IMG/VR virus record: IMGVR_UViG_3300030060_005267
Coordinates: 1 to 35,469 of that record
Length of the DNA stretch: 35,469 bases
Direction: 5' to 3' (one strand)
DNA from: a virus
Shown: one piece after another, positions 2,299 through 35,469 of the stretch
How the letters are laid out: each line of letters opens with the position of its first letter
How positions within the stretch are numbered: the first letter of the stretch is position 1
Made by a program: the position numbers and the translations under genes
The notes under the pieces: generated by a model
What the model saw: the letters and a program-made list of their open reading frames with translations, nothing else
Told to the model about the DNA's origin: nothing
The model's database searches: none

Positions 2299-3438
2299 AT
2301 GGCTGATCCAGTTACAGCATCGATAGCGCAAGCCGCACTAAGTGGAGTCGGCAATTTTATAAAAAATGATTTAATTGATCGTATTTTTGGGTCACTTTTC
2401 GGCGGTGGAGGTTCAGACCTGCCGCCTTTAACGCCTGAACAACAAGCTGCTTTAGAGGTCAGTAACGCTTTAAATATGGCTCAAGGTGATTTGTATGGTG
2501 ACGGGCAAAATGAAGGGTTTTTAGAAATAGTTGGTCCGACGTTTGAACAGGCAGTTGCAAAGGTGCAGGCTCTTGACGACTCAAAAGAGAAAACTGACTT
2601 ATTAAGTGTGTTAGCAAATAATACACCTTATGATTTTACAGACCTAACACCAATGGATATTACTGGCGTTGATCCTTTGGCAGACCCTTCGTCTGATGAA
2701 GTTGTAAACGAAATTGAAGGCACTGCATCGATTGACTTGCTCGATGATGTTTCGGATGTCGTCGATGTCTATACATATAGGAAGTCTGACAATGTATTCG
2801 TTGGTGCTAATGGTTCAGTATATCCGGCGGGTGACACATCAGATGTGCCTATAGTTGATGGAGGCGCTTACACTGTTCGCGTTGATATGGAAGATGGCAA
2901 TGTTGTTGCTGAACATGTCGTGGGCGAAGATGGCAAAGATGTCGCAACCGTTGGCTATCGTGACGGCTCACCTTTTCTTTTGCCGATACCTTCACAAAAT
3001 GACACTGCGCAAAACAACAATCAGCAAAACAACAATCAGCAAAACAACAATCAGCAAAACAATACGACAACTGCGACTGTTGAGACTGTTAATCAAACAA
3101 AGCGCACGCCGCAGATAGCTGTTATACAGCCGCAAGAAAATCGCGATCCACCTAAAGGCCCAGCAGGCCCAGCAGGCCCAGCAGGTCCAGCAGGCCCAGC
3201 AGGTACGGCAGGTCCAGCAGGATCAGCGGGAGTAGAAGGACCGCAAGGTAGTCAGGGTATTGAGGGTATTCAAGGTATTCAAGGTATTCAAGGTATTCAG
3301 GGTATTGCGGGTCGTGACGGTACAAGCGCACCGCGCAACTTGACTGAAACATTTTTTAGAGATTTAAAACCTATAGAAATTGAAACTGACTTGCTGACAT
3401 CTCTGCGCCAGCAATCAGGTTGGAGGTCGCTGGTATGA
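2299..3438 (+). CDS. Collagen-like virion protein, 379 aa
   Basis: Probably a trimeric fibre or decoration protein. Layout: residues 1-230 are a folded acidic domain with a Gly patch at 35-38; 235-255 is a Gln/Asn linker of repeated QQNNN; 287-341 is an uninterrupted Gly-X-Y tract, first GPA triplets, then GIQ/GIE triplets ending GRDG; the rest is a short C-terminal domain. Gly-X-Y tracts in phage fibres form collagen-like triple helices. It lies directly before the connector gene, and its stop overlaps that gene's ATG, so it may attach near the tail or head vertex. The DNA under the linker and collagen tract is short tandem repeat, so length variation between phage relatives is likely. Confidence 0.75.
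   Translation: MADPVTASIAQAALSGVGNFIKNDLIDRIFGSLFGGGGSDLPPLTPEQQAALEVSNALNMAQGDLYGDGQNEGFLEIVGPTFEQAVAKVQALDDSKEKTDLLSVLANNTPYDFTDLTPMDITGVDPLADPSSDEVVNEIEGTASIDLLDDVSDVVDVYTYRKSDNVFVGANGSVYPAGDTSDVPIVDGGAYTVRVDMEDGNVVAEHVVGEDGKDVATVGYRDGSPFLLPIPSQNDTAQNNNQQNNNQQNNNQQNNTTTATVETVNQTKRTPQIAVIQPQENRDPPKGPAGPAGPAGPAGPAGTAGPAGSAGVEGPQGSQGIEGIQGIQGIQGIQGIAGRDGTSAPRNLTETFFRDLKPIEIETDLLTSLRQQSGWRSLV
3010..3062. repeat. 15-bp tandem repeat (Gln/Asn linker)
   Basis: Three full units and one partial unit of CAAAACAACAATCAG run from 3010 to 3062 in frame, coding for the QQNNN linker of the collagen-like protein. Unit length is a multiple of three, so slippage would change linker length without breaking the frame. 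Confidence 0.95.
3157..3309. repeat. 9-bp tandem repeats (collagen tract)
   Basis: Seven units of the GGCCCAGCA type (3157-3219) are followed by diverged units and then six units of the GGTATTCAA type (3256-3309). All are in frame and encode Gly-X-Y triplets. The two blocks have different base composition, so they probably expanded separately. Confidence 0.95.
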
Positions 3439-4082
3439 CTTTTTTGCAGTTAATAAATGAAATATTAAGACGGCTGCGAGAAACAACCGTAAGCACGTCT
3501 GATGAAAACGACTACAGTAAAATGATCGGTGATTTAATCAACGATGCGAAAACGACAGTTGAGTTATCGCACGAATGGACTGCGCTTCGAACAACAGTAA
3601 CTTTTCCAACTGTCGCATCGACAAAAACGTATGCGCTTTCAGGAACAACGCAGGGCGCAATACTAAAAGAAGCAATGAACGACACAAATAATTTGTTTCT
3701 ACAGCCTAAAACGAAGCATTACATTAATCAGGCAACTTACGTCAGTGCTCCGGTCAGCGGTGTGCCGGATTGCTACGCTTTTAATGGAACCGATGCGACC
3801 GGACAGTTACAAGTTGATTTGCACCCAACGCCTGACGCTATCTATCAGATGCGCTTTGATATGGTTGTGCCACAGGCAGAACTAGCAAGCGATTCAACTG
3901 TATTACAAGTGCCTCACTCTCCGGTGGTGCAGTTGGCTTACGGTTATGCGTTACGCGAAAAAGGTGAAACAGGTGGCATCAGCGCAGCAGAACAGTTTGG
4001 CGTCGCCTCTATCGCGTTAAGTGATGCAATACAAATCGATGCAAATCGATATCAAAATGAATTAACTTTTGTGGCGGTCTAA
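3435..4082 (+). CDS. Head-tail connector/adaptor protein, 215 aa
   Basis: Predicted adaptor that joins the portal to the tail nozzle, comparable in role to T7 gp11 and in N-terminus to the SU10-type adaptors of many phages. The opening TFLQLINEILRRLRETTVS, followed by DYSKMIGDLINDAKTTVE and a W in HEWTALRTTVTF, is the usual start of this family; the later part is beta-rich. ATG 3435 is chosen over the open TTG at 3420 because GGAGGT at 3422-3427 sits seven bases before it. It overlaps the collagen-like gene (ATGA) and the next gene (TAATG), consistent with a tightly coupled structural operon. Confidence 0.72.
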   Translation: MTFLQLINEILRRLRETTVSTSDENDYSKMIGDLINDAKTTVELSHEWTALRTTVTFPTVASTKTYALSGTTQGAILKEAMNDTNNLFLQPKTKHYINQATYVSAPVSGVPDCYAFNGTDATGQLQVDLHPTPDAIYQMRFDMVVPQAELASDSTVLQVPHSPVVQLAYGYALREKGETGGISAAEQFGVASIALSDAIQIDANRYQNELTFVAV

Positions 4083-5611
4083 TGGCTCAACAACTACAAA
4101 ATATAAGTATCGGAGCGCCGGGGTTTATGGGCTTAAACACCCAAGATGCGCCCCTACAACAAGACCCTAGCTTTGCAGCTATCGCCGATAATTGTGTCAT
4201 CGACAAAGAAGGTCGGATTGCGGCTCGCAAAGGTTATTCGTTGGTATCTAGCAACGGCGGCGCAGTTCTCGGTTCGAGTGCTGGTATTGAAAGTATAGGT
4301 GAGTTTATACAGTACGACGGTACGAAAGTCGTCTTTTCAGCTGGTAATAACAAGATTTTTACAGGCACTTCGACGCTTACTGACGCGACAGGTTCTTTAA
4401 CCATTACGGCAAACAACTGGTCGATGGCCTCTTTGGGTAACAAGTTTTATCTTTTTCAAATCGGACATGCGCCACTTGTTTACGATCCGGCTGGGCCAGC
4501 ATTAACAACTATCGCGGCACATGCTTCGGTAGCAGGCACGCCGCCGCAAGCGAATATTGTAATTGCGGCTTTCGGTCGATTATGGGCGGCAGATGTCACA
4601 GGCAATAAACAAACTATCTATTTCAGTGATTCGCTGAACGGTTTGGCGTGGACGGGTGGCAGCAGTGGCAGTTTAGATTTGACGACAGTTTGGCCCGGAG
4701 GCTTTGACGAAATAGTTGCTCTTGCTGCGCATAATAACTTTTTAGTCATTTTAGGTAAGCGTAATATTCTCGTGTACTCAGGTGCTACCGACCCGTCGTC
4801 AATGTCGTTAGCTGACACGATACACAATATCGGATGTGTCGGACGCGATGCAGTGCAATCTACGGGTAAAGATATCCTGTTTTTAGATTTTTCTGGCGTG
4901 CGATCTCTTTCGCGTACTATTCAAGAGAAGTCAGCACCAATTGGCGATATTTCGAAAAACGTAGCCAATGATATTAAGTCGCGTATACAAGCAGAAACCG
5001 GAAATATTAAAACAGTTTATGACAGTAATAATGCTTTTTACCTTGTCAATTTTCCAGCTGTCGGCGTCGTCTACTGCTTCGACACCCAATACCCCCTAAA
5101 CGACGGGAGTTATCGCACGACGACGTGGACAGCCATGGCACCTAAATGTTTCGTTGTGACAGACAATGACGAATTATATTTAGGGGTCGGCACAGGAATC
5201 GGTGAATACACAAGTTTTACAGATGATACAGCTGCCTACACATTAGAGTATTTCTCGCACCCGCTAAGTTTTGGCGACTCTGGCAGACTTAAATTTCTAA
5301 AAAGCGTGAATGTAACGACATTTAACGGCGCTGGTGCTACGGTAGTTCTAAACTGGGCTTACGATTATGAGGGTAACTACAGAAAGCGTGCGTATGACTT
5401 GGCTGCTTTCGCGGCAGGGCAGTACGGTATTGCTGAATACAACACTAGTGATGCAGAGTACGCATCGTCGATTCAATTAATAAATAAGCAAAAAGTTAGT
5501 ACATCAGGCTCCGGCAGTATTGTCGCTGTGGGTCTTACAACTGATGTGAATGGCAAAGAAATTGCTTTTCAAGAACTAAATATACACAGCCTTATTGGGA
5601 GGGTAATCTAA
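4082..5611 (+). CDS. Tail nozzle-type beta-propeller protein, 509 aa
   Basis: Probable tail nozzle, the counterpart of T7 gp12, placed directly after the adaptor. The N-terminus (GFMGLNTQDAPLQQDPSFAA, then NCVIDKEGRIAARKGYS) is typical of phage proteins that begin by binding the connector. The middle has repeated beta strands with FGRLWAAD, TIYFSDSLNGLAW and NNFLVILGKRNILVYSG, suggesting a propeller. Start ATG 4082 overlaps the adaptor stop (TAATG). The stop TAA at 5609-5611 overlaps the proposed ATT start of the next gene. A second, non-orthologous nozzle-like gene starts at 34855 near the right end. Confidence 0.65.
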   Translation: MAQQLQNISIGAPGFMGLNTQDAPLQQDPSFAAIADNCVIDKEGRIAARKGYSLVSSNGGAVLGSSAGIESIGEFIQYDGTKVVFSAGNNKIFTGTSTLTDATGSLTITANNWSMASLGNKFYLFQIGHAPLVYDPAGPALTTIAAHASVAGTPPQANIVIAAFGRLWAADVTGNKQTIYFSDSLNGLAWTGGSSGSLDLTTVWPGGFDEIVALAAHNNFLVILGKRNILVYSGATDPSSMSLADTIHNIGCVGRDAVQSTGKDILFLDFSGVRSLSRTIQEKSAPIGDISKNVANDIKSRIQAETGNIKTVYDSNNAFYLVNFPAVGVVYCFDTQYPLNDGSYRTTTWTAMAPKCFVVTDNDELYLGVGTGIGEYTSFTDDTAAYTLEYFSHPLSFGDSGRLKFLKSVNVTTFNGAGATVVLNWAYDYEGNYRKRAYDLAAFAAGQYGIAEYNTSDAEYASSIQLINKQKVSTSGSGSIVAVGLTTDVNGKEIAFQELNIHSLIGRVI

Positions 5612-15347: not shown

Positions 15348-15411
15348 TTAATTTTGCTAAAGTATAACATTAGTTTTACTAATATATCTGCATAAAACTA
15401 ATGTACGTTAG
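15348..15411 (-). promoter_or_regulatory. Leftward early promoter with operator cluster
   Basis: Reading leftward, TATACT (15361-15366) preceded by TG gives an extended -10. It is bracketed by TTAGCAAAATTAA at 15348-15360 (minus strand) and ATTAGTTTTACTAAT at 15369-15383, a perfect five-base-arm palindrome. CTAATGTACGTTAG at 15398-15411 is a further inverted repeat. The arrangement places repressor sites over and next to the promoter of the recombination operon. Confidence 0.6.
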
Positions 15412-15420
15412 CAAATTTTT

Positions 15421-16104
15421 TTAAGTCGTCACAAATTCCTTAAAACAGCCAATGACTACGCCAACTACACAGTCTTTGCCTCTGAGTTTAAAAACTGCGT
15501 CTGAAAACTTTTTGTTTTCATACTCATAAGTTTCTTCACCGATATATGTAGCAAAAACTACTTTGTCATCGCGCACCAAACAGACCGCATCGCCTGAAGA
15601 TACTTCGATCGTAGGGTCTACATAAGCATAGCTGCCTTGCTGCAACATAGGTTCCATAGCTTGACTGTCGATCTCAAAACCTCTGACTTCAACGGCACAC
15701 TGGCCGGGATAACTGATAAAATTTCTTGCCGCTCCAACAGCGGGTGTTTGTCCTTTGCACATTTGCCTTGCTACCTTCACGATTTGTTGGGTGGTTCCCT
15801 CAACAATGGGGACCTGATACACCGGAGTACCGCTAAGTAGTGCTGCTATGCGAGGGCTAAACTTGTCAACTGTGCAATCAAGTAGTCGTGCGAAAACTAA
15901 AGCGTTTTCAGGACTTATAGGGGAACTGTCTCGTCGAGTAGACATTATCTGACTAACTCGGCTTTGGTTTACCCCTAATACATGCGCTATCGATTCCTGA
16001 CTAATCGGTTTCTCATTGCGAGCGTTTTGATCTTCGCGTCTCGCTATGAACAAGGCGTGCAACTTCGCACACTCTTGCACCTGTTCGTCTGTAAGCTGAC
16101 TCAT
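15421..16104 (-). CDS. CI/LexA-like repressor, 227 aa
   Basis: Probable lysogeny repressor. Residues about 34-60 (ISQESIAHVLGVNQSRVSQI) form an XRE helix-turn-helix. From about 130 on is an S24/LexA-like peptidase domain with VRGFEIDSQAMEPMLQQG, YVDPTIEVSSGDAVCLVRDD and a C-terminal VVGVVIG. Aligning with G-D-S-M-x-P places Ala149 where the catalytic Ser should be, and Ala185 (VVFATYIG) where the catalytic Lys should be, so RecA-triggered self-cleavage looks lost; Ser147 is the only nearby alternative. It faces divergent early genes and has operator-like sites at both ends, fitting autoregulation. Confidence 0.8.
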   Translation of the reverse strand: MSQLTDEQVQECAKLHALFIARREDQNARNEKPISQESIAHVLGVNQSRVSQIMSTRRDSSPISPENALVFARLLDCTVDKFSPRIAALLSGTPVYQVPIVEGTTQQIVKVARQMCKGQTPAVGAARNFISYPGQCAVEVRGFEIDSQAMEPMLQQGSYAYVDPTIEVSSGDAVCLVRDDKVVFATYIGEETYEYENKKFSDAVFKLRGKDCVVGVVIGCFKEFVTT

Positions 16105-16376
16105 TGTTTACCTTTGATAATTTTAAAAATAATACCAATCGTATTAATATTAGCAAAATTAATAAAGATAAAGCAAATTTCGCATATAACTCATAAAACC
16201 GGATAAGCAGTCTGTCATTATTTTGACGCTCTCAACAGCCAAATATTACAGTTTTTTGCACAAATTTAGTGCCTTTTTTGAGAAACATTCTCATTTAGGT
16301 GTAAAATTTTAATGTTGCAAAAAATTGACAGATATGATTAGTATTAGAGATATTAATATAAAACAAGGGTGCGCAC
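16105..16376. promoter_or_regulatory. Divergent immunity control region
   Basis: A 272-base AT-rich gap between repressor and rightward early genes. It holds operator-like ATTAGCAAAATTAAT at 16149-16163 on the repressor side, a symmetric TGAGAAACATTCTCA at 16279-16293, and on the other side TTGACA (16325-16330) with operator-like ATTAGAGATATTAAT at 16343-16357 lying where the -10 should be. Binding there would block the rightward promoter, and binding at the first site would control the repressor's own transcription. The exact -10 hexamers are uncertain. Confidence 0.6.
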
Positions 16377-17121: not shown

Positions 17122-17136
17122 ATTAGCGAAACTAAT
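17122..17136. promoter_or_regulatory. Operator-like palindrome
   Basis: ATTAGCGAAACTAAT has perfect five-base arms around CGAAA and lies 20 bases before the 17157 start codon, in the 58-base gap after the HTH regulator. Its 13-base core is repeated exactly at 818-830. Confidence 0.55.
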
Positions 17137-24186: not shown

Positions 24187-24279
24187 ATGCCCGGAAAACA
24201 TTACGGAAAAGGTAGCGGATACGTCAAAAGCAAAAAAGCCAAAAAAGGCAAGATGAAGAAAAAGGCGGTGCGTCGTTAG
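24187..24279 (+). CDS. Lysine-rich micropeptide, 30 aa
   Basis: ATG 24187 with an excellent AGGAGG at 24176-24181 opens MPGKHYGKGSGYVKSKKAKK followed by a further basic end; about half of the residues are Lys or Arg. The stop TAG shares a base with the terminase GTG. A similar-style micropeptide occurs at 34768-34854. The strong ribosome site argues that it is translated and couples terminase synthesis. A protamine-like or capsid-internal role is speculative. Confidence 0.6.
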   Translation: MPGKHYGKGSGYVKSKKAKKGKMKKKAVRR

Positions 24280-25532
24280 TGTCATTTGATCTTGATCTAC
24301 TGCCGTGGCAAGAAAAAGTGTGGGATGATCCGTCACGCTTCAAAGTTGTGGCGGCGGGTCGTCGAACTGGCAAATCTCGCTTGGCGGCTTATATGCTCTT
24401 GGTTGAAGGCTTACGAGCAACCGAGGGCGAAATCTTTTATGTCGCTCCGACGCAGGGGCAGGCAAGAGATATTATGTGGAATCTGCTTTTGGAGTTAGGA
24501 CATCAGTATATAGAAGCGTCACATATCAATAATTTACAAATCAAGTTAGTCAATGGCACACAAATATCACTAAAAGGAAGTGATCGGCCGGAAACCTTGC
24601 GAGGCAGCAAGGTCAAATTTTTAGCAATTGATGAGTACAGTGATCAACGCCCGGACGTGTGGGAATTAATATTGAGACCAGCGTTGACAGACTTGGCACC
24701 AGAGTCAAAGGCTTTGTTTATTGGTACGCCCACGGGCAGAAACCATTTTTACGATTTATATAAAGCAGCGCACGACTTAGAAGATCATGCGGCTTTCCAT
24801 TTTACCAGTTACGACAATCATAAATTAGATGAAAGAGAAATTGAAAAAGCTAAAAAGCAAATGTCTTCTTTCGCGTTTCGCCAAGAGTTCATGGCAAGTT
24901 TTGAAGCTCGCGGCAGCCAGATGTTTAAAGAAGATTGGATTCACTACCAAGAAAAAGAGCCCGCCTCTGGGGATTTCTATATCAGCTGCGACTTGGCTGG
25001 CTTCGCAGACGTCGGGCAATCAAGACGCAAAAAGAAATCAAACCTTGACGACACAGCCATATCGGTCGTCAAAGTCAACGCCGAAGGGTGGTGGGTAAAG
25101 GACATCATTTGCGGCAGATGGGATTTGAACGAAACAGCAATGAAAATCTTTCAGGCTGTTCGAGACAACCAGCCTTTATCGGTTGGAATCGAGCGCGGTA
25201 TCGCTCGACAGGCAGTTATGTCACCGTTATCTGATTTGATGCGGCAGCATAATGTCTATTTTCATATAGAAGAGTTATCACACGGTAATCGAAATAAAAC
25301 AGACCGAATCATGTGGGCGCTTCAAGGGCGTTTTGAAAACGGCATGATCAAGTTGAACCGAGGTGCGTGGAATACGAAATTTGAAGATCAACTTTTTCAG
25401 TTTCCCGACGCACTCACGCATGATGATATGCCGGACTCGCTCGCATATATCGATGCACTCAGTAACGTGATTTATTTCGATGAAACAATACAAGACAATT
25501 TCGAGCCTTTGGACTCGGTGGCAGGGTACTAA
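24279..25532 (+). CDS. terL: Terminase large subunit, 417 aa
   Basis: ATP-driven DNA packaging motor with nuclease. Walker A GRRTGKS at 27-33, Walker B FLAIDE at 114-119 with catalytic Glu119, and the coupling motif IGTPTGR at 148-154. The RNase-H-like nuclease domain shows CDLAGFAD (Asp238), VGIERGIAR (Glu305) and HDDMPDSLAYID (Asp385). Length is typical. The GTG start at 24279 overlaps the micropeptide stop. Portal, scaffold and capsid follow in the usual order. Confidence 0.93.
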   Translation: MSFDLDLLPWQEKVWDDPSRFKVVAAGRRTGKSRLAAYMLLVEGLRATEGEIFYVAPTQGQARDIMWNLLLELGHQYIEASHINNLQIKLVNGTQISLKGSDRPETLRGSKVKFLAIDEYSDQRPDVWELILRPALTDLAPESKALFIGTPTGRNHFYDLYKAAHDLEDHAAFHFTSYDNHKLDEREIEKAKKQMSSFAFRQEFMASFEARGSQMFKEDWIHYQEKEPASGDFYISCDLAGFADVGQSRRKKKSNLDDTAISVVKVNAEGWWVKDIICGRWDLNETAMKIFQAVRDNQPLSVGIERGIARQAVMSPLSDLMRQHNVYFHIEELSHGNRNKTDRIMWALQGRFENGMIKLNRGAWNTKFEDQLFQFPDALTHDDMPDSLAYIDALSNVIYFDETIQDNFEPLDSVAGY

Positions 25533-27621: not shown

Positions 27622-27660
27622 ATTAGTGAAAATAATGTATTTTACAATTACTAATATGAC

Positions 27661-28980: not shown

Positions 28981-29934
28981 ATGGCTACTTCGACTTATCC
29001 CGCCCAAGGTGGCGTGAGTAACGTCACAACGCAAGCGAATTTTATACCAGAAATTTTTAGCGATGAGGTTTCTGCGGCATTTCGCGCCAAGATTGTAATG
29101 GCTAATATTATTAAGCAAATGCCAATGACAGGTGTCAAGGGTGACGTTATTAATATCCCAAACCCCGCTAGGGGAGCAGCTTCTGCTAAAAGTTCTGGAA
29201 CGGCAGTTACAATACAGAATGACACAGCGGCTAACATTGCACTTACTATCAATCAGCACTTCGAATATTCGCGGTTGCTTGAAGACATTGCAGCTTTGCA
29301 GCAATTAAATAGTGCGCAGGAATTTTACACCGACGATGCTGGCTTTCAGCTTGCAAAAACTGTAGATACCAACCTGCACAACTTAGGTAAGTCTCTCGGC
29401 GACGGTGACGGTACAAGCTGGGTAAACTCAGCATCTTATTACGTTGACGCTTCAAGTGGTCTAACAACTTATAGTGTGGATACCGTTACGAGCACCGACA
29501 TCATAACAGATGCGGGTTTCAGAGCCTTAATCGTTAAAATGGATGATGCGAATGTGCCTTTCGATAACAGGTACTTTGTAATTCCACCTAGCTGTCGCTC
29601 AAACATGATGGGCATCGACCGTTATGTGTCTAGTGACTTCGTTGACGCTCGCGGCGTTGATAACGGCAAGATAGGTAATATCTACGGTATCGACATCATG
29701 GTATCAACTAACACGGTCACTACCGAAACAGCATCTGAAAATAGTGCAGGTGGCGCTTTGAAAGCAGCTATGCTTCTACATGAAAGCTCTTTGGTGCTTG
29801 CTATGCAGCAAGACATTAGAGTGCAGACGCAGTACAAGCAAGAGTGGCTCGCTGATCTATTAACAGCCGATGTCATTTTTGGATCGGTCGTGTTCCGCAG
29901 CGATAGTGCGTTCAATCTTATCGTAAACGCATAA
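28981..29934 (+). CDS. Major capsid protein (HK97 fold), 317 aa
   Basis: Main shell protein. Length and position after the scaffold fit, as do an N-terminal arm with FIPEIFSDEVSAAFRAKIVM, the GDVINIPNPARG segment (E-loop region), VDTNLHNLGKSLGDGDGTSW, and the C-terminal ITDAGFRALIVKMDDANVPF, RYFVIPPS, GNIYGIDIMVSTN and DVIFGSVVFRSD strands typical of this capsid lineage. Strong ribosome site (GAGG) and a strong terminator downstream indicate high, separately bounded expression. Confidence 0.88.
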   Translation: MATSTYPAQGGVSNVTTQANFIPEIFSDEVSAAFRAKIVMANIIKQMPMTGVKGDVINIPNPARGAASAKSSGTAVTIQNDTAANIALTINQHFEYSRLLEDIAALQQLNSAQEFYTDDAGFQLAKTVDTNLHNLGKSLGDGDGTSWVNSASYYVDASSGLTTYSVDTVTSTDIITDAGFRALIVKMDDANVPFDNRYFVIPPSCRSNMMGIDRYVSSDFVDARGVDNGKIGNIYGIDIMVSTNTVTTETASENSAGGALKAAMLLHESSLVLAMQQDIRVQTQYKQEWLADLLTADVIFGSVVFRSDSAFNLIVNA

Positions 29935-29985: not shown

Positions 29986-30708
29986 ATGGCAACGATAGTT
30001 ATTAAAAACAGCACTACGGCGTCAGCTGTCCCCACTTCGTCCGATCTTGTTCAGGGCGAACTCGCAATCAATTTGTCTGATAAAAGACTGTTCAGCGAAG
30101 ACAATTCAGCTACAGTTTTTGAGATAGGCACGAACCCCTCGTCGATCACTACTTCAGCTATAACCGCGACAGGCACCGTGACCGCTAATAGTAGCCTTGT
30201 GTCGAGTAATGCGACACTCACTGGCGGCAGTATCGACGGCATGATAATCGGCGCTTCTTCGCCGGCAGCAATCACAGGCACAACGGTGACAGGTACCTCT
30301 TTTGTTGGCCCCTTAACCGGAGACAGCACAGGAGCGCACACCGGAGCAGTAACCGGAGATGTAAGCGGAAATATAACTGGTTCGGGTTCTTCGTCTTTAA
30401 CGACTCTCGCGGTAACGAACTTAACAGCTGGTGGATTAACTTACCCAACGAGCGATGGCTCGGCCAACAATGTGCTTGCCACAAATGGTTCGGGCGCACT
30501 CAGTTTTATTTCAGTCAGTGGCGCTTATGCGCTGGCTAGTCAGAGCGAAGCCGAAGCGGGTACAGAAACAGGCGGTCGCATATTTTCACCATTAAGAGTA
30601 AAGCAGGCGATTGATGCTTTAGCAGGTGCGGCAAGTGTCGATGGCGGCACTGCGACATCAAATTATACAGGTATACCATTAATCGACGGAGGGTCGGCAA
30701 GTGGCTAG
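29986..30708 (+). CDS. Tail-fibre-like protein, 240 aa
   Basis: The N-terminus (VIKNSTTASAVPTSSDLVQG followed by ELAINLSDKRLFSED) is the recurring attachment-type module of many phage tail proteins (as in GELALN-type domains). Residues 50-170 are Thr/Ser/Gly/Val-rich repeats of short strands (TGTTVTGTSFVGPLTGDSTG), suggesting a beta-helical shaft. The C-terminus has GRIFSPLRVKQAIDALA, another common fibre motif. Ribosome site AAAGGGG lies just after the terminator. Probably one of several receptor-binding components. GTG of the next gene overlaps the end. Confidence 0.7.
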   Translation: MATIVIKNSTTASAVPTSSDLVQGELAINLSDKRLFSEDNSATVFEIGTNPSSITTSAITATGTVTANSSLVSSNATLTGGSIDGMIIGASSPAAITGTTVTGTSFVGPLTGDSTGAHTGAVTGDVSGNITGSGSSSLTTLAVTNLTAGGLTYPTSDGSANNVLATNGSGALSFISVSGAYALASQSEAEAGTETGGRIFSPLRVKQAIDALAGAASVDGGTATSNYTGIPLIDGGSASG

Positions 30709-31648
30709 TAAAATACAAATACGAAGAGACACCGCAAGTAACTGGACGAGTGCCGATCCTACCCTGAGCAATGGCGAACTGGGTTTAGAAACGGACACTA
30801 AGAGGTTAAAGGCCGGAGATGGCTCAACAGCTTGGAGTTCGCTGGCCTACTACACGCTCGGCGTGGCTGGTTACATCACAGCAACCAGCACAGATACTTT
30901 AACCAATAAAACACTAACAGCACCTAAAATAGTTGATGCTGGTTTTATTGCCGATGCCAACGGAGCGGAACAAATTATCTTTCAAACGACCGCGAGTGCG
31001 GTAAACCAGTTTGATGTGACTAATGCGGCGACAGGTAATCCACCTAAACTGTCTGCAACTGGCGATGACAGTAATATCGATCTTGATCTCGAGGCGAAGG
31101 GAACAGGACACGTCACTATTCGCGGGAATACAAATTCCGGTGCGATACAGTTTAACTGTGAAAACAACTCTCACGGTGTGACTTTAGCTGGTCCAGCTCA
31201 CTCAGCAGCAGCAACATACTCTATTGCGCTACCTAATACTCTTGGCACATCACAAGCATCAGCAGTCGTTTCAACGGACGCGAGTGGCGATGTTTCATTA
31301 GCGGCTGAATTGACAGCGGTGAGTTATAACGACACGTTCGTTACGCTTTCGAGTTCCAGTAATGCGGTCAGCTTAGATTGTGAAGCGGGTAATTCGTTTA
31401 CGCATACCCTCACCGAGAACACGACATTCACTTTTGCGAATCCTCCAAGCGGCAAATCGTTTACGTTCATTTTAAAAGTTGTACAGGACGCGAGTGCGAG
31501 TGGATTCACGTTAACGTGGCCGACAGTCAAGTGGAATGCGGCAACAGCGCCCACACTTACAGCCACAGCATCAGCAATTGATTACTTTGTTTTTTCATAT
31601 GACGGAACTGCGTGGTACGGATTCACGGCAGCTCAAGCGATGGGCTAA
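30701..31648 (+). CDS. Tail-fibre/spike-like protein, 315 aa
   Basis: Begins with IQIRRDTASNWTSADPTLSN and GELGLETDTKRLKAGDGSTA, the same type of N-terminal module as the previous gene, specialised with RRDTASNW and KAGDGSTAWSSL. The middle is beta-rich with SIDLDLEAKGTGHVTIRG-like strands, and the C-terminus PSGKSFTFILKVVQDASASG, FTLTWP and FVFSYDGTAWYG is a tail-protein tip domain. It starts at GTG 30701 behind GGAGGG. Its own neighbour and the chaperone downstream support a fibre role. Confidence 0.7.
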   Translation: MASKIQIRRDTASNWTSADPTLSNGELGLETDTKRLKAGDGSTAWSSLAYYTLGVAGYITATSTDTLTNKTLTAPKIVDAGFIADANGAEQIIFQTTASAVNQFDVTNAATGNPPKLSATGDDSNIDLDLEAKGTGHVTIRGNTNSGAIQFNCENNSHGVTLAGPAHSAAATYSIALPNTLGTSQASAVVSTDASGDVSLAAELTAVSYNDTFVTLSSSSNAVSLDCEAGNSFTHTLTENTTFTFANPPSGKSFTFILKVVQDASASGFTLTWPTVKWNAATAPTLTATASAIDYFVFSYDGTAWYGFTAAQAMG

Positions 31649-33601
31649 ATGACAACAAAAAAATTGATGCAAGGTGCCGCTGGCAATGCTAGCGGTGATC
31701 CAGTATATGTAGAAGATGTTTTCGCTACCCATCTTTATAATGGAACAAGCGGGACTTCTTTAGCAATTAACAATGGTATTGATTTAGCTGGCGAAGGTGG
31801 TCTTGTTTGGATAAAAGAAAGGTCAAGTGGCGGTGGTGGTCATATACTTTTTTCAACCGATTCCAGTGGTAATCATAGTGGTCTTTTAGTTTCTAGTAGC
31901 TCAGCAGCAGCCGGAACAGGCTATCAACCTACTTATTTCACTCAAAATAATAATGGATTCACAACAACAAACACAGTCGGAGATTCAAAGACTGATGGAA
32001 ATGAATATGCTTCTTTCAGTTTTCGGGAAAAAGCAGGATTTTTTTCAATTGTTTCTTGGACAGGTGACGGAAGTGGAGATCAAACCATATCTCACAATTT
32101 AGCCAGTACACCGGGTTTTATCGCAGTTAAAGCTCTTAACGCTGATAGTTCTTGGCGTGTTTTTCATACATCAACAGGTAATACTAAATTTGGTTATTTA
32201 AATTCTACTAGCGATATAAGTGCTATGGCAGATTTAAATTGGAATGCAACTAGCACAACTTTTGTTGCTGATAGTCAGATATCTCTCAATACTAATGGTA
32301 GAACTTATGTAGCATATCTTTGGGCAAGTGGCACTGATTCAGCCTCTCAAATTTTTGGTGATGACGGTGATGAATCGATAGTTCGTTGTGGTTCTTATAC
32401 TGGTGACGGCGGAGCAGGAACTACAGAAGTGAATCTTGGTTTTGAACCGCAATGGATACTTGTCAAAGCAACAAGTGCCGCAGACAACTGGTTTATTATC
32501 GACAATATGCGTGGCTGGGCGACTGACAACAATGCAAACAATGACGCATATCTAATGCCAAACGCATCCAATGCAGAATCTACCGGAGGATTTTTAGACA
32601 TAACCTCTACTGGCTTTAAGACGACTTTATACTCAAACGTGAATGTTAGCGGAAGAACGTATGCTTATCTAGCAATACGTCGCGGCCCAATGAAAGAGCC
32701 TTCTGCGGGTACTGATGTTCTTGACATTCGGACATCGACATCTTCTGGCTCACCTGAATTTTTGTGGAATTCTTTACCATTTCCTCCCGATTGGGCAGGC
32801 TATCGCGCACCAGTTGATAATGGGTATGCGTTTCAAAACAGTGCTCGATTGATACAAGGCAAATCTCTTGCTACTCGAAATACCGATTCGGCAAGCACTT
32901 CTTCAAATATGTATTTTGATTCGCAAGATGCTTGGTTCGCTTGGGGTAGTTCAGGATTAACCGGCTACTTCAGTTTTGCTTGGAGACGATACCCAAAAGT
33001 ATTCGATATGCTTGTGATGACAGGGACAGGATCAGCGCAAGTCGTAAATCACAATCTAACGGTAGTTCCAGAACTGATGATCTCGAAGACACTTGCTGCA
33101 ACCGGTTACACTGCTGGGGGTACTCTTCTTGATAATTGGTTTGTTTGGAGTAGTCATGTACACGCAACAAACTCATTTGGGTTTCTCAATACAGATGGTA
33201 CGGATGCCTACAGCATGATGAATCAAACGCCAACGGCAACACAGCTCACGCTGCAAAGTAATGTCGCTTATAGTGGTGACAAATCAGTGAAATTCCTTTT
33301 TGCGACACTCGCAGGTGTGAGCAAAGTGGGGACAGTAGTTCATTCTGGTACGACAAATGTAGATTGCGGATTCAGCAGCGGAGCGAGATTTGTGATGATA
33401 AAACGTACTGATGCTTCATCGGATTGGTTTGTGTTCGATAGTGTTATGGGTGGAATTGTTGCTGGAAATGATCAATATTTTCGCATGAATGTTGGTGCTG
33501 CTCCAGTGACCGGCACAGATTACATTGACCCGCTTGCGGCAGGATTTACTTTGACATCCAGTTTTACCGCTGGAACCTATTTCTTCTTAGCGTTTGCATA
33601 G
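31649..33601 (+). CDS. Large repetitive tail-fibre protein, 650 aa
   Basis: Five similar beta-sandwich-like units can be traced, about residues 20-125, 131-226, 246-345, 452-555 and 557-650. Units 2-4 share the frame GTG-or-GDG, then HNL or NLG, then a P, then a hydrophobic V-K-type strand, DNWF or SSW, and a closing SGRTYAYLAI-type strand, resembling DUF7483-type fibre repeats. Residues 346-451 form a different insert (WNSLPFPPDWAGY). It is likely the host-range-determining fibre, placed before the chaperone. The first half of the gene is visibly more AT-rich and uses TTT, AAT and TCT codons more than its neighbours, hinting at separate ancestry. Confidence 0.7.
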   Translation: MTTKKLMQGAAGNASGDPVYVEDVFATHLYNGTSGTSLAINNGIDLAGEGGLVWIKERSSGGGGHILFSTDSSGNHSGLLVSSSSAAAGTGYQPTYFTQNNNGFTTTNTVGDSKTDGNEYASFSFREKAGFFSIVSWTGDGSGDQTISHNLASTPGFIAVKALNADSSWRVFHTSTGNTKFGYLNSTSDISAMADLNWNATSTTFVADSQISLNTNGRTYVAYLWASGTDSASQIFGDDGDESIVRCGSYTGDGGAGTTEVNLGFEPQWILVKATSAADNWFIIDNMRGWATDNNANNDAYLMPNASNAESTGGFLDITSTGFKTTLYSNVNVSGRTYAYLAIRRGPMKEPSAGTDVLDIRTSTSSGSPEFLWNSLPFPPDWAGYRAPVDNGYAFQNSARLIQGKSLATRNTDSASTSSNMYFDSQDAWFAWGSSGLTGYFSFAWRRYPKVFDMLVMTGTGSAQVVNHNLTVVPELMISKTLAATGYTAGGTLLDNWFVWSSHVHATNSFGFLNTDGTDAYSMMNQTPTATQLTLQSNVAYSGDKSVKFLFATLAGVSKVGTVVHSGTTNVDCGFSSGARFVMIKRTDASSDWFVFDSVMGGIVAGNDQYFRMNVGAAPVTGTDYIDPLAAGFTLTSSFTAGTYFFLAFA

Positions 33602-33610
33602 GACTGAACA

Positions 33611-34096
33611 ATGAGCAATTACAGAATTTCTGACGGCACAGAAAAAACAAAAGCCGAAATCATCGCATTAAACCCCAACGTATCTCTCCCGAAAGTCTGG
33701 ACAGAAAACACAAGAGAGGCGCTCGGCATTGATGTAATTTTTGAGACAGCACAACCAACGCCAAGTGGACCGTATAAGATAGTAATCAGAGATGGCATAG
33801 AGCAAGACGCAAACGACAACTGGGTTCAGAAGTGGACGGAAACGGATATGTTTGCCGACACCGAGGACAAAACCAAAGCCGAGCAAGAAACTGAATATCA
33901 GGCTGGTCTTGATGCTGATGCAGCAAAGGCTGTTAGATCGCAGCGTGATGGCTTGTTGGCCGAAACAGACTTCTATGCTCTGAGCGATGTCACGATGTCG
34001 GATGAGATGACTACATATCGACAAGCCTTGAGAGACATAAGCTTGCATGAGTCGTTTCCAAACCTAGAAAAAGACGATTGGCCCACTAAGCCCTGA
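33611..34096 (+). CDS. Tail-fibre assembly chaperone, 161 aa
   Basis: Complete copy of the gene whose 3' end opens the window. N-terminus YRISDGTEKTKAEIIALNPN; middle YKIVIRDGIEQDANDNWVQK, a strand pair common to the family; C-terminus LLAETDFYALSDVTMSDEMT followed by YRQALRDI and DDWPTKP, the Phage_tail_APC-type signature. It should assist folding of the fibre encoded just upstream. The stop TGA shares its last base with the ATA proposed as start of the next gene. Confidence 0.78.
   Translation: MSNYRISDGTEKTKAEIIALNPNVSLPKVWTENTREALGIDVIFETAQPTPSGPYKIVIRDGIEQDANDNWVQKWTETDMFADTEDKTKAEQETEYQAGLDADAAKAVRSQRDGLLAETDFYALSDVTMSDEMTTYRQALRDISLHESFPNLEKDDWPTKP
33971..34096. repeat. Right copy of 126-bp direct repeat
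   Basis: Matches window positions 1-126 with two mismatches (34069 and 34093). Similarity on the DNA level stops immediately after the stop codon. In this copy the sequence upstream continues into the full chaperone gene. Confidence 0.95.
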
Positions 34097-34287
34097 TAAA
34101 AGTTTTCATCCTCCTCATCGCTATTCACGGTGAGGTGCAGCACACAACGTGCAATTTTTCTCTTTGCTTTAACACCTATAACCGATGTTGGTATTTCTCC
34201 CAACGAATCAACAACAATGCAGACAAAAATGTTACCGCGAATTGTCAACCAATTTTCATACAGCCAGATAAGAGGTTTTTTCAATGA
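34096..34287 (+). CDS. Small Cys-rich protein with apparent ATA start, 63 aa
   Basis: From 34096, in a frame with no ATG, GTG or TTG near the 5' end, the sequence reads (after ATA) KVFILLIAIHGEVQHTTCNF, continues SLCFNTYNRCWYFSQRINNN and ends in DKRFFQ at TGA 34285-34287. It is homologous to the 136-330 protein: VFIL at the start, Cys-x4-Cys-x6-Cys-WYFSQRIN versus Cys-x4-Cys-x6-Cys-LYFAERLN, and a final Cys 18-19 residues later. ATA occupies the ATG position of a TGATG-type junction. Either ATA serves as start or one base is changed. It fills an otherwise empty 187-base gap. Confidence 0.6.
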   Translation: MKVFILLIAIHGEVQHTTCNFSLCFNTYNRCWYFSQRINNNADKNVTANCQPIFIQPDKRFFQ

Positions 34288-34775
34288 TCGAGATTGGAAT
34301 AGCTTTGGCTGCGGCAACAAAAAGTGTTGAGTTAATTAGGCAGGGTGTAAAGCTAGGTCAAGACACAAAGTCCCTTTCTAGTGAATTCGCAAAGTTTTGT
34401 GATTTTAAAGACGATATCGCACAAGCTCAGAAAGAACGTCAGCGCGATGATTACTTGGAAAAATACAACGAGAAGCAGATTCGCAAACATGCGATGGATC
34501 TCGCTATGGCTGAAGACAAGGCCAGAGAAATGGAAGACGCGATTCGCAGAGCTTTTTTTTCAGTGAACAAAATGGATGTTTACTTTCGGATGATAGAAAT
34601 CCAAAAGCAAGAAACAAAGCGATGGAAACTTGCGAAAAGTAGACAACTAGCAAAACGTAAAGACGATTTACTTACTGGGAAAGACGTTACATACATCATG
34701 TTGTTTTTTCTTTTTTCTGTCGCTGTGATTGGCGGCGTAATTTTTATGATAATTGCAGGAGAAGCAAATGCCTAG
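34284..34775 (+). CDS. Tail-anchored coiled-coil membrane protein, second copy, 163 aa
   Basis: Homologue of the 327-821 gene by length, layout and place. The N-terminus is MIEIGIALAAATKSVELIRQ, then charged helix with FCDFKDDIAQAQKERQRDDY, and residues about 136-158 (YIMLFFLFSVAVIGGVIFMI) form a single membrane segment near the C-terminus. AAGAGG precedes the start. Function unknown; the conserved pairing with a Cys-rich secreted protein suggests that the two work together at the inner membrane. Confidence 0.65.
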   Translation: MIEIGIALAAATKSVELIRQGVKLGQDTKSLSSEFAKFCDFKDDIAQAQKERQRDDYLEKYNEKQIRKHAMDLAMAEDKAREMEDAIRRAFFSVNKMDVYFRMIEIQKQETKRWKLAKSRQLAKRKDDLLTGKDVTYIMLFFLFSVAVIGGVIFMIIAGEANA

Positions 34776-34854
34776 AGGACCCGGAACATACGGATCAAAA
34801 GTCGGAAGACCCCCAAAAAAGAAAAGTAAAAAGGGCGGCAAGAAGAAAAAATAA
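34768..34854 (+). CDS. Lysine-rich micropeptide, 28 aa
   Basis: ATG 34768 overlaps the previous stop region; TAA 34852-34854 touches the next ATG. The peptide starts MPRGPGTYGSKVGRPP and ends in a run of Lys and Gly. The style resembles the 30-aa peptide before terL (MPGKHYG start, Lys-rich end). GCAGGAG upstream at about 34756 is a good ribosome site. Function unknown. Confidence 0.5.
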   Translation: MPRGPGTYGSKVGRPPKKKSKKGGKKKK

Positions 34855-35469
34855 ATGGCTTTAGTGAAATTAGAAATACCGCCGGGTCTCTCGGCCAATG
34901 GAACAATCTACCAAAACAGCGGTCGTTGGTTCGACGGCAACTTGGTGCGTTGGTTTCAGAATACGATGAGACCCGTAGGCGGTTGGACCACTATGTCCTC
35001 GACTCAGTTCGCTGATGTCTCCCGAGGTATGCTTGCGTACTACGACAACTCGAATGCTCGACGAGTGATAGTTGGAACGCCCTCTAATCTTTATGTTTAT
35101 GTAGAAGGCAAAAACCAATCTGACATAACCCCGGTAGGCATAGCTACGGGATCTGTCGATGCTATTCAGAATACAGGATACGGAAGCCAATTCTACAATG
35201 AAGGGACATATGGCACCCCTAGAAGTGATAATCAAACCTACACGCCTTGTACCACTGTTACGATTGATAACTTTGGTGAAAACGTAGTCGCTTGTTTTAC
35301 TGGCGGCGGCGCGGATGGCAAGATTTACTACTGGCAGAATGACCCGGCAACAATAGCGGCTGTGCTCACCAATGCCCCAACGAACAACAAAGCTGTTTTA
35401 GTGACTGATGAAAGATTTGTGATGGCATTAGGTGCAGATTCTAACGCCAGAAAAGTCCAATTTTCGGAC
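34855..35469 (+). CDS. Virion/nozzle-like protein, 5' part
   Basis: The first 205 codons of a gene that runs off the window. IPPGLSANGTIYQNSGRWFD followed by NLVRWFQNTMRPVGGW is a widespread opening of marine phage structural proteins; the later DERFVMALGADSNARKVQFS is typical of propeller-type tail proteins. It could be the counterpart of the 4082-5611 nozzle but is not closely similar. A complete phage would not be expected to need both, so this copy may belong to a variant genome. Confidence 0.6.
   Translation, partial: MALVKLEIPPGLSANGTIYQNSGRWFDGNLVRWFQNTMRPVGGWTTMSSTQFADVSRGMLAYYDNSNARRVIVGTPSNLYVYVEGKNQSDITPVGIATGSVDAIQNTGYGSQFYNEGTYGTPRSDNQTYTPCTTVTIDNFGENVVACFTGGGADGKIYYWQNDPATIAAVLTNAPTNNKAVLVTDERFVMALGADSNARKVQFSD

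Follow-up and report, generated by a model that had tools for sequence, protein, structure and literature searches.

We propose, with a probability of about 0.9, that the contig analysed here represents a circular phage genome of about 33,970 bp from one lineage (L), opened inside its tail-fibre chaperone gene, followed by a 1,373-base extension into a second temperate phage of another lineage (R). The window, that is, the whole stretch of DNA analysed, is the complete marine phage IMG/VR record IMGVR_UViG_3300030060_005267 of 35,469 bases; its fibre, chaperone, four-cysteine, coiled-coil, lipase, adaptor, nozzle, terminase and capsid genes described below lie on its + strand, and numbers such as L083 or G004 are handles for related loci and records that do not denote lineage. 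The DNA repeated at the two ends is most likely not a real duplication but the trace of phages having naturally exchanged host-recognition genes. For curation, we would treat the record as a ~33,970 bp circle of lineage L to which 1.4 kb of foreign DNA is attached; it should not be taken for a phage that has two tail modules.

The end repeat and its flanking genes

Comparison of the window with itself aligned positions 1-126 with 33971-34096 at 124/126 identical bases and a spacing of 33,970, reproducing both the coordinates and the identity given in the original prediction. The two mismatches were at repeat positions 99 (C/A) and 123 (G/C), leaving the first 98 nt exact, and comparison of the ends of the window revealed no second comparable repeat. 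The repeat covers the 3′ end of a gene for a tail-fibre assembly chaperone. The complete copy occupies 33611-34096 and matched Phage_tail_APC (PF16778, E 2e-13, 50.4 bits, above the curated cut-off of 26.6) and phrog_4912 (E 6e-16); the contig opens within the second, left copy at 1-126. Directly upstream of the complete copy are tail-fibre genes spanning 30701-33601 (30701-31648 and 31649-33601), which matched tail-fibre PHROGs and showed mosaic similarity to both the L and R lineages. From the PF16778 match and the gene order, the chaperone is predicted to cap the neighbouring fibre or to be required for it.

DNA similarity between the two copies was lost at the chaperone stop codon, beyond which, as predicted, the order of chaperone end, four-cysteine protein and tail-anchored coiled coil occurred at both ends of the window. 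On the left (L) path, a small secreted-type four-cysteine protein is encoded at 136-330, with homologues of 67-69% identity after the chaperone in L005, L007 and L012; it is followed by a coiled coil with a C-terminal membrane anchor at 327-821 (L005-L009 and L012 have homologues of 45-50% identity at this position) and a class-3 lipase at 845-1576 (PF01764, E 4e-16), which holds the same position in L005-L009, L012 and L014-L018. The right (R) path contains a four-cysteine protein at 34093-34287, with homologues in L083/L084 and L003/L004, a coiled coil with a C-terminal membrane anchor at 34284-34775, for which a 99% identical protein is present in L083, and the N-terminal part of a nozzle-like virion protein at 34855-35469 (phrog_3287, E 3e-23), which runs off the contig. 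The four-cysteine proteins of the two paths were 35% identical over 62 aa (E 4e-16) and the coiled coils 19% identical over 140 aa (E 4e-5) with no DNA similarity, in agreement with the claim that these genes are homologous at the protein level only. The further claim, that the genes beyond them differ entirely, was correct for the immediate neighbours, the lipase on the left and the start of a phrog_3287 protein on the right, but the left path also leads to a nozzle-like virion protein at 4082-5611 (phrog_3287, E 5e-14; phrog_5107), which was 61-82% identical to its counterparts in L-lineage relatives.

The R-path four-cysteine gene has no ATG, GTG or TTG start; it appears to begin at the CTG at 34093, and its overlap with the chaperone stop reads CTGA. 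Its homologues in the same place begin with CTG in L083 (7849) and L084 (6621) and with TTG in L003 (2615) and L004 (2332). The CTGA overlap suggests coupled translation from a rare start codon.

A contig probably opened at an assembly fork

The first base of the repeat is contig base 1, the exact run is 98 nt long and the first variant base is base 99. A contig starting with the first 99-mer past a fork in a de Bruijn graph shows exactly this pattern. Both marks of such a fork, a contig end at the start of the repeat and an exact run of k-1 before the variant, were thus present; the 98-nt run would equal k-1 for k=99, a value that we infer from the lengths. In our proposed mechanism, the k-mer graph would fork because L and R phages share near-identical DNA at least over the chaperone 3′ end (98 nt exact, 124/126 overall). 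The fork would fall at the last shared 98-mer, with the C99 edge opening the contig and the A99 edge taken at its right end. The mechanism implies that L and R phages probably co-occurred in the sample and that the exchange of fibre and chaperone genes between them was probably recent.

A related record, G014 (IMGVR 3300030104_001233; 60,643 bases), showed the same arrangement: its bases 1-98 recur exactly at 60545-60642, after which the first base is different (T/C). When contig ends in related samples were compared with other loci for overlaps of fixed k, no clean cases were found beyond G014 and the circles with 127-nt and 119-nt overlaps described below. An exact search of IMG/VR with a 33-nt pattern from the chaperone end found no other contig, and therefore neither path is backed by an independent, near-identical contig.

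The proposed closure agrees well with the relatives of the L backbone. The large terminase subunit of the window (24279-25532; phrog_2, E 7e-36) was 63-69% identical to that of 13 related records. Where the ends of these records were compared, the self-overlap was exactly 127 bases long in G004, G006 and G011, which close as circles of 32,768, 37,430 and 34,592 bp, and 119 nt long in G003, which closes at 36,959 bp. The end overlaps of G001 (97.1% over 242 bp, unit 33,225) and G005 (91% over 467 bp) were imperfect; G001 was considered as support for k=99 and dropped, as its first end mismatch, at base 80, does not fit. The related records open at differing points of one shared map. Closed from 33,970 to 1, the window gives a circle of 33,970 bp, within the 32.8-37.4 kb range of the relatives, with a map comprising terminase, portal, capsid, fibres, chaperone, lipase, adaptor, nozzle, large structural proteins and integrase. 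On this map the major capsid protein is encoded at 28981-29934 (phrog_267, E 2e-36; 50-63% in 12 L-lineage records) and the head-tail adaptor at 3420-4082 (PF24175 SU10_adaptor, E 1e-9).

The right branch belongs to a different backbone

The DNA of 34093-35469 was 88.4% identical to L083, and the match began at 34093, at the chaperone stop. L084 matched at 90%, also from 34093, in two pieces only because its coiled-coil gene differs. The R-path nozzle was 94%, 92% and 86% identical to those of L083, L084 and L003, respectively, and L103, which starts 211 bases before the right end of the window, overlapped it at 96.7% identity and continued the R lineage. Upstream of the match, L083 and L084 have unrelated fibre genes, and a different gene of 120-121 aa replaces the chaperone of the window. 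L083 carries its own integrase and replication genes, and searches of its record (a 25 kb fragment) for the terminase, capsid and chaperone of the window gave no detectable match. Likewise, the R-lineage record G015 had no detectable homologue of the terminase or capsid of the window, and both proteins were absent from the records with a strong R-type nozzle. We conclude from these comparisons that the right branch is, by its gene content, another temperate lineage, which carries a different fibre cassette in L083 and L084. The suggestion that two phage variants share this junction was right about the sharing; "variants" understates the difference, since the branch leads to a different backbone, as the absence of terminase and capsid homologues in G015 indicates. 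A nucleotide search with the right end found nothing among named phages. GC content was tried as a separator of the right branch and rejected: its value of 0.433 did not stand apart from the 0.43-0.47 found elsewhere.

Either gene order was found in relatives, in separate contigs: the left order in L005-L008 and L012, and the right order in L003 and L004. Because L003 and L004 carry fibre, chaperone, four-cysteine protein, coiled coil and R nozzle in this natural order, the right junction of the window is a real gene order.

The chaperone stop codon as a cassette border

When the ends of DNA similarity within 3 kb were located across 95 representative chaperone loci, 105/449 lay within 30 nt of the chaperone stop, compared with ~4.6 expected if they were uniform; pairs of loci are not independent, and a conserved chaperone beside unrelated genes yields such clustering by itself. 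A second cluster of breakpoints was found near the chaperone start (about -540). The same border also occurred with different neighbours, as expected of an exchangeable cassette, both in this count and in L083/L084, where similarity to the window begins at 34093 and the fibre genes upstream of it are different. The sharp loss of identity at the stop codon had been read as a recombination boundary, and the recurrence of this border in many relatives bears that out. From the pattern of shared and unshared DNA, we regard the stop codon of the chaperone as a natural cassette border that recurs. As the cause of the fork, we propose that tail-fibre and chaperone genes would swap as a unit between backbones, with the border at this codon, and that downstream of it each backbone would retain its own four-cysteine protein, coiled coil and nozzle. 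Apparently, the two lineages shared the cassette so recently that the DNA is still 98% identical.

Two further stretches of similarity were observed. A 53-base stretch in the fibre gene (32670-32722) was 90-94% identical in the otherwise diverged L003, L004, L011, L017 and L018, and might possibly serve as an anchor for exchange inside the fibre gene. Positions 234-6149 of L005 and 9689-15613 of L006, from two different samples, were 93% identical in DNA, in a stretch that begins in the 3′ part of the fibre gene and extends across the lipase module. Here the lipase module precedes an R-family nozzle; therefore, the lysis module moves between backbones too.

Alternative explanations

We considered whether one phage truly carries both modules, with two chaperone ends, two pairs of four-cysteine and coiled-coil genes and two nozzles, as alternative tail/lysis modules. 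Both modules do stand in one contig, and tandem fibre-chaperone pairs do exist in L011 and L014-L018; nevertheless, we regard this as very improbable, and give no more weight to the related idea of a single population with both tail/lysis modules and nozzles in which the 126-bp chaperone repeat is a switching recombination site. None of 18 related records, many of them fragments, had two chaperone matches or two phrog_3287 nozzle matches, and the R-type nozzle occurred in 60 of the fetched loci and the L-type in 82, with no locus carrying both. No relative was found with both downstream modules in one molecule, and R-type nozzles sit in records without the terminase and capsid of the window. 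Moreover, if the duplication were true, it would be by chance that the repeat starts exactly at contig base 1 and that its exact run is 98 nt long. The natural tandem arrangement is itself different: L011, L014-L018 and L078 have a pair of chaperones, each accompanied by a separate fibre gene, and a single shared downstream module. In L011 and L014-L018 the first chaperone is followed by a second fibre gene (MSRARDIADSA...), a shorter, diverged chaperone and then the four-cysteine gene. The tandem copies were 59-66% identical in DNA over the last 126 nt, not 98%, and therefore provide no explanation for the repeat in the window. Of the two readings originally offered, the first being a genuine pair of modules and the second a closing path plus an alternative branch, the second is favoured by the k-1 start, the circular relatives, the R lineage and the lack of any relative with two nozzles.

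The same tandem loci raise another question, whether positions 1-126 end a second chaperone that follows a missing second fibre gene, in which case the circle would exceed 33,970 bp and 34097-35469 would still be foreign. Six L-like relatives have just such a series of chaperone, extra fibre gene, second chaperone and four-cysteine gene. Their second chaperones, however, are shorter and diverged, and the last 126 nt of these share 57-66% DNA identity with the window; the left copy of the window, by contrast, is 98% identical to its first chaperone, and the extra fibre gene is absent from L005-L008 and L012; we consider this arrangement quite unlikely. Slightly less so, although still unlikely, is a second chimeric join, by which an R-lineage fibre cassette (~31.2-34.1 kb) was assembled onto the L backbone with its own L fibres missing. 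For the chaperone and for aa 61-315 of the 30701 gene, scores were better with R-lineage or unassigned loci than with loci of lineage L, and the chaperone is nearer to its R-lineage homologues (L003, L004) than to L ones. On the other hand, the fibre gene at 31649-33601 contains a patch of 91% DNA identity to the L-lineage genome L012, the best segments of the fibre region alternate between lineages as natural mosaicism predicts, and the left chaperone copy, to which L genes are attached, shares 98% identity with the right one. A join near 31.2 kb could hold together with our explanation of the right end; it is possible and not needed. Least probable of all, to the point of being negligible, is that the repeat is the direct terminal repeat of a linear virion genome. 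A 126-nt repeat near both ends would suit it, but the repeat has two mismatches instead of being exact, 1,373 non-repeated bases extend past the right copy, and the relatives open at many map points, several closing as circles.

Relation to known phages

The sharing of a fibre-chaperone cassette, and the chimeric contig that we favour, have parallels in earlier work. In Alteromonas phages A5, V22 and P24, a host-recognition module of fibre and chaperone is common to otherwise unrelated genomes (PMC10579305). The likeness lies in a tail fibre and its cognate chaperone shared as a unit; those are other phages and hosts, known from isolates, with modules that diverged anciently (PMC10579305), whereas here the identity is 98% in DNA over a short stretch of a metagenomic contig. 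Roseobacter phage CRP-1 (MK613343) has a 58% identical chaperone, gp40, right after a protein of ~640 aa; however, its record is 54 kb long with other downstream genes. The closest named relative of the R-branch nozzle was gp13 (48%) of Octadecabacter Antarctic DB virus 2 (MW805364), which directly follows a gene annotated as tail fibre; this virus was absent among the listed matches to the chaperone of the window and has its own backbone. Virome assembly benchmarks have shown that chimeric contigs arise when viruses that share similar regions co-exist (PMC5610896). Those benchmarks were simulated, whereas here the partner lineages and the fork were identified. The fork is an ordinary but clear case of fibre-chaperone cassette exchange among marine phages, and the chaperone stop is a repeatedly used border of fibre-chaperone cassettes that are interchangeable among marine phages whose backbones are unrelated.

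Other features of the L backbone

Between the 1819-2298 gene and the adaptor gene, positions 2299-3438 encode a protein with collagen-like repeats (PF01391) and an NNQQN repeat. A palindrome-like word, ATTAGCGAAACTAAT, had 10 matches at <=3 mismatches, with 1.8 expected; its sites include 817-831, 15369-15383, 16149-16163, 16343-16357, 17122-17136 and 27622-27636. Several of them lie near the gene at 15421-16104, which has weak HTH and S24-peptidase matches, and the word may possibly be a repressor operator.
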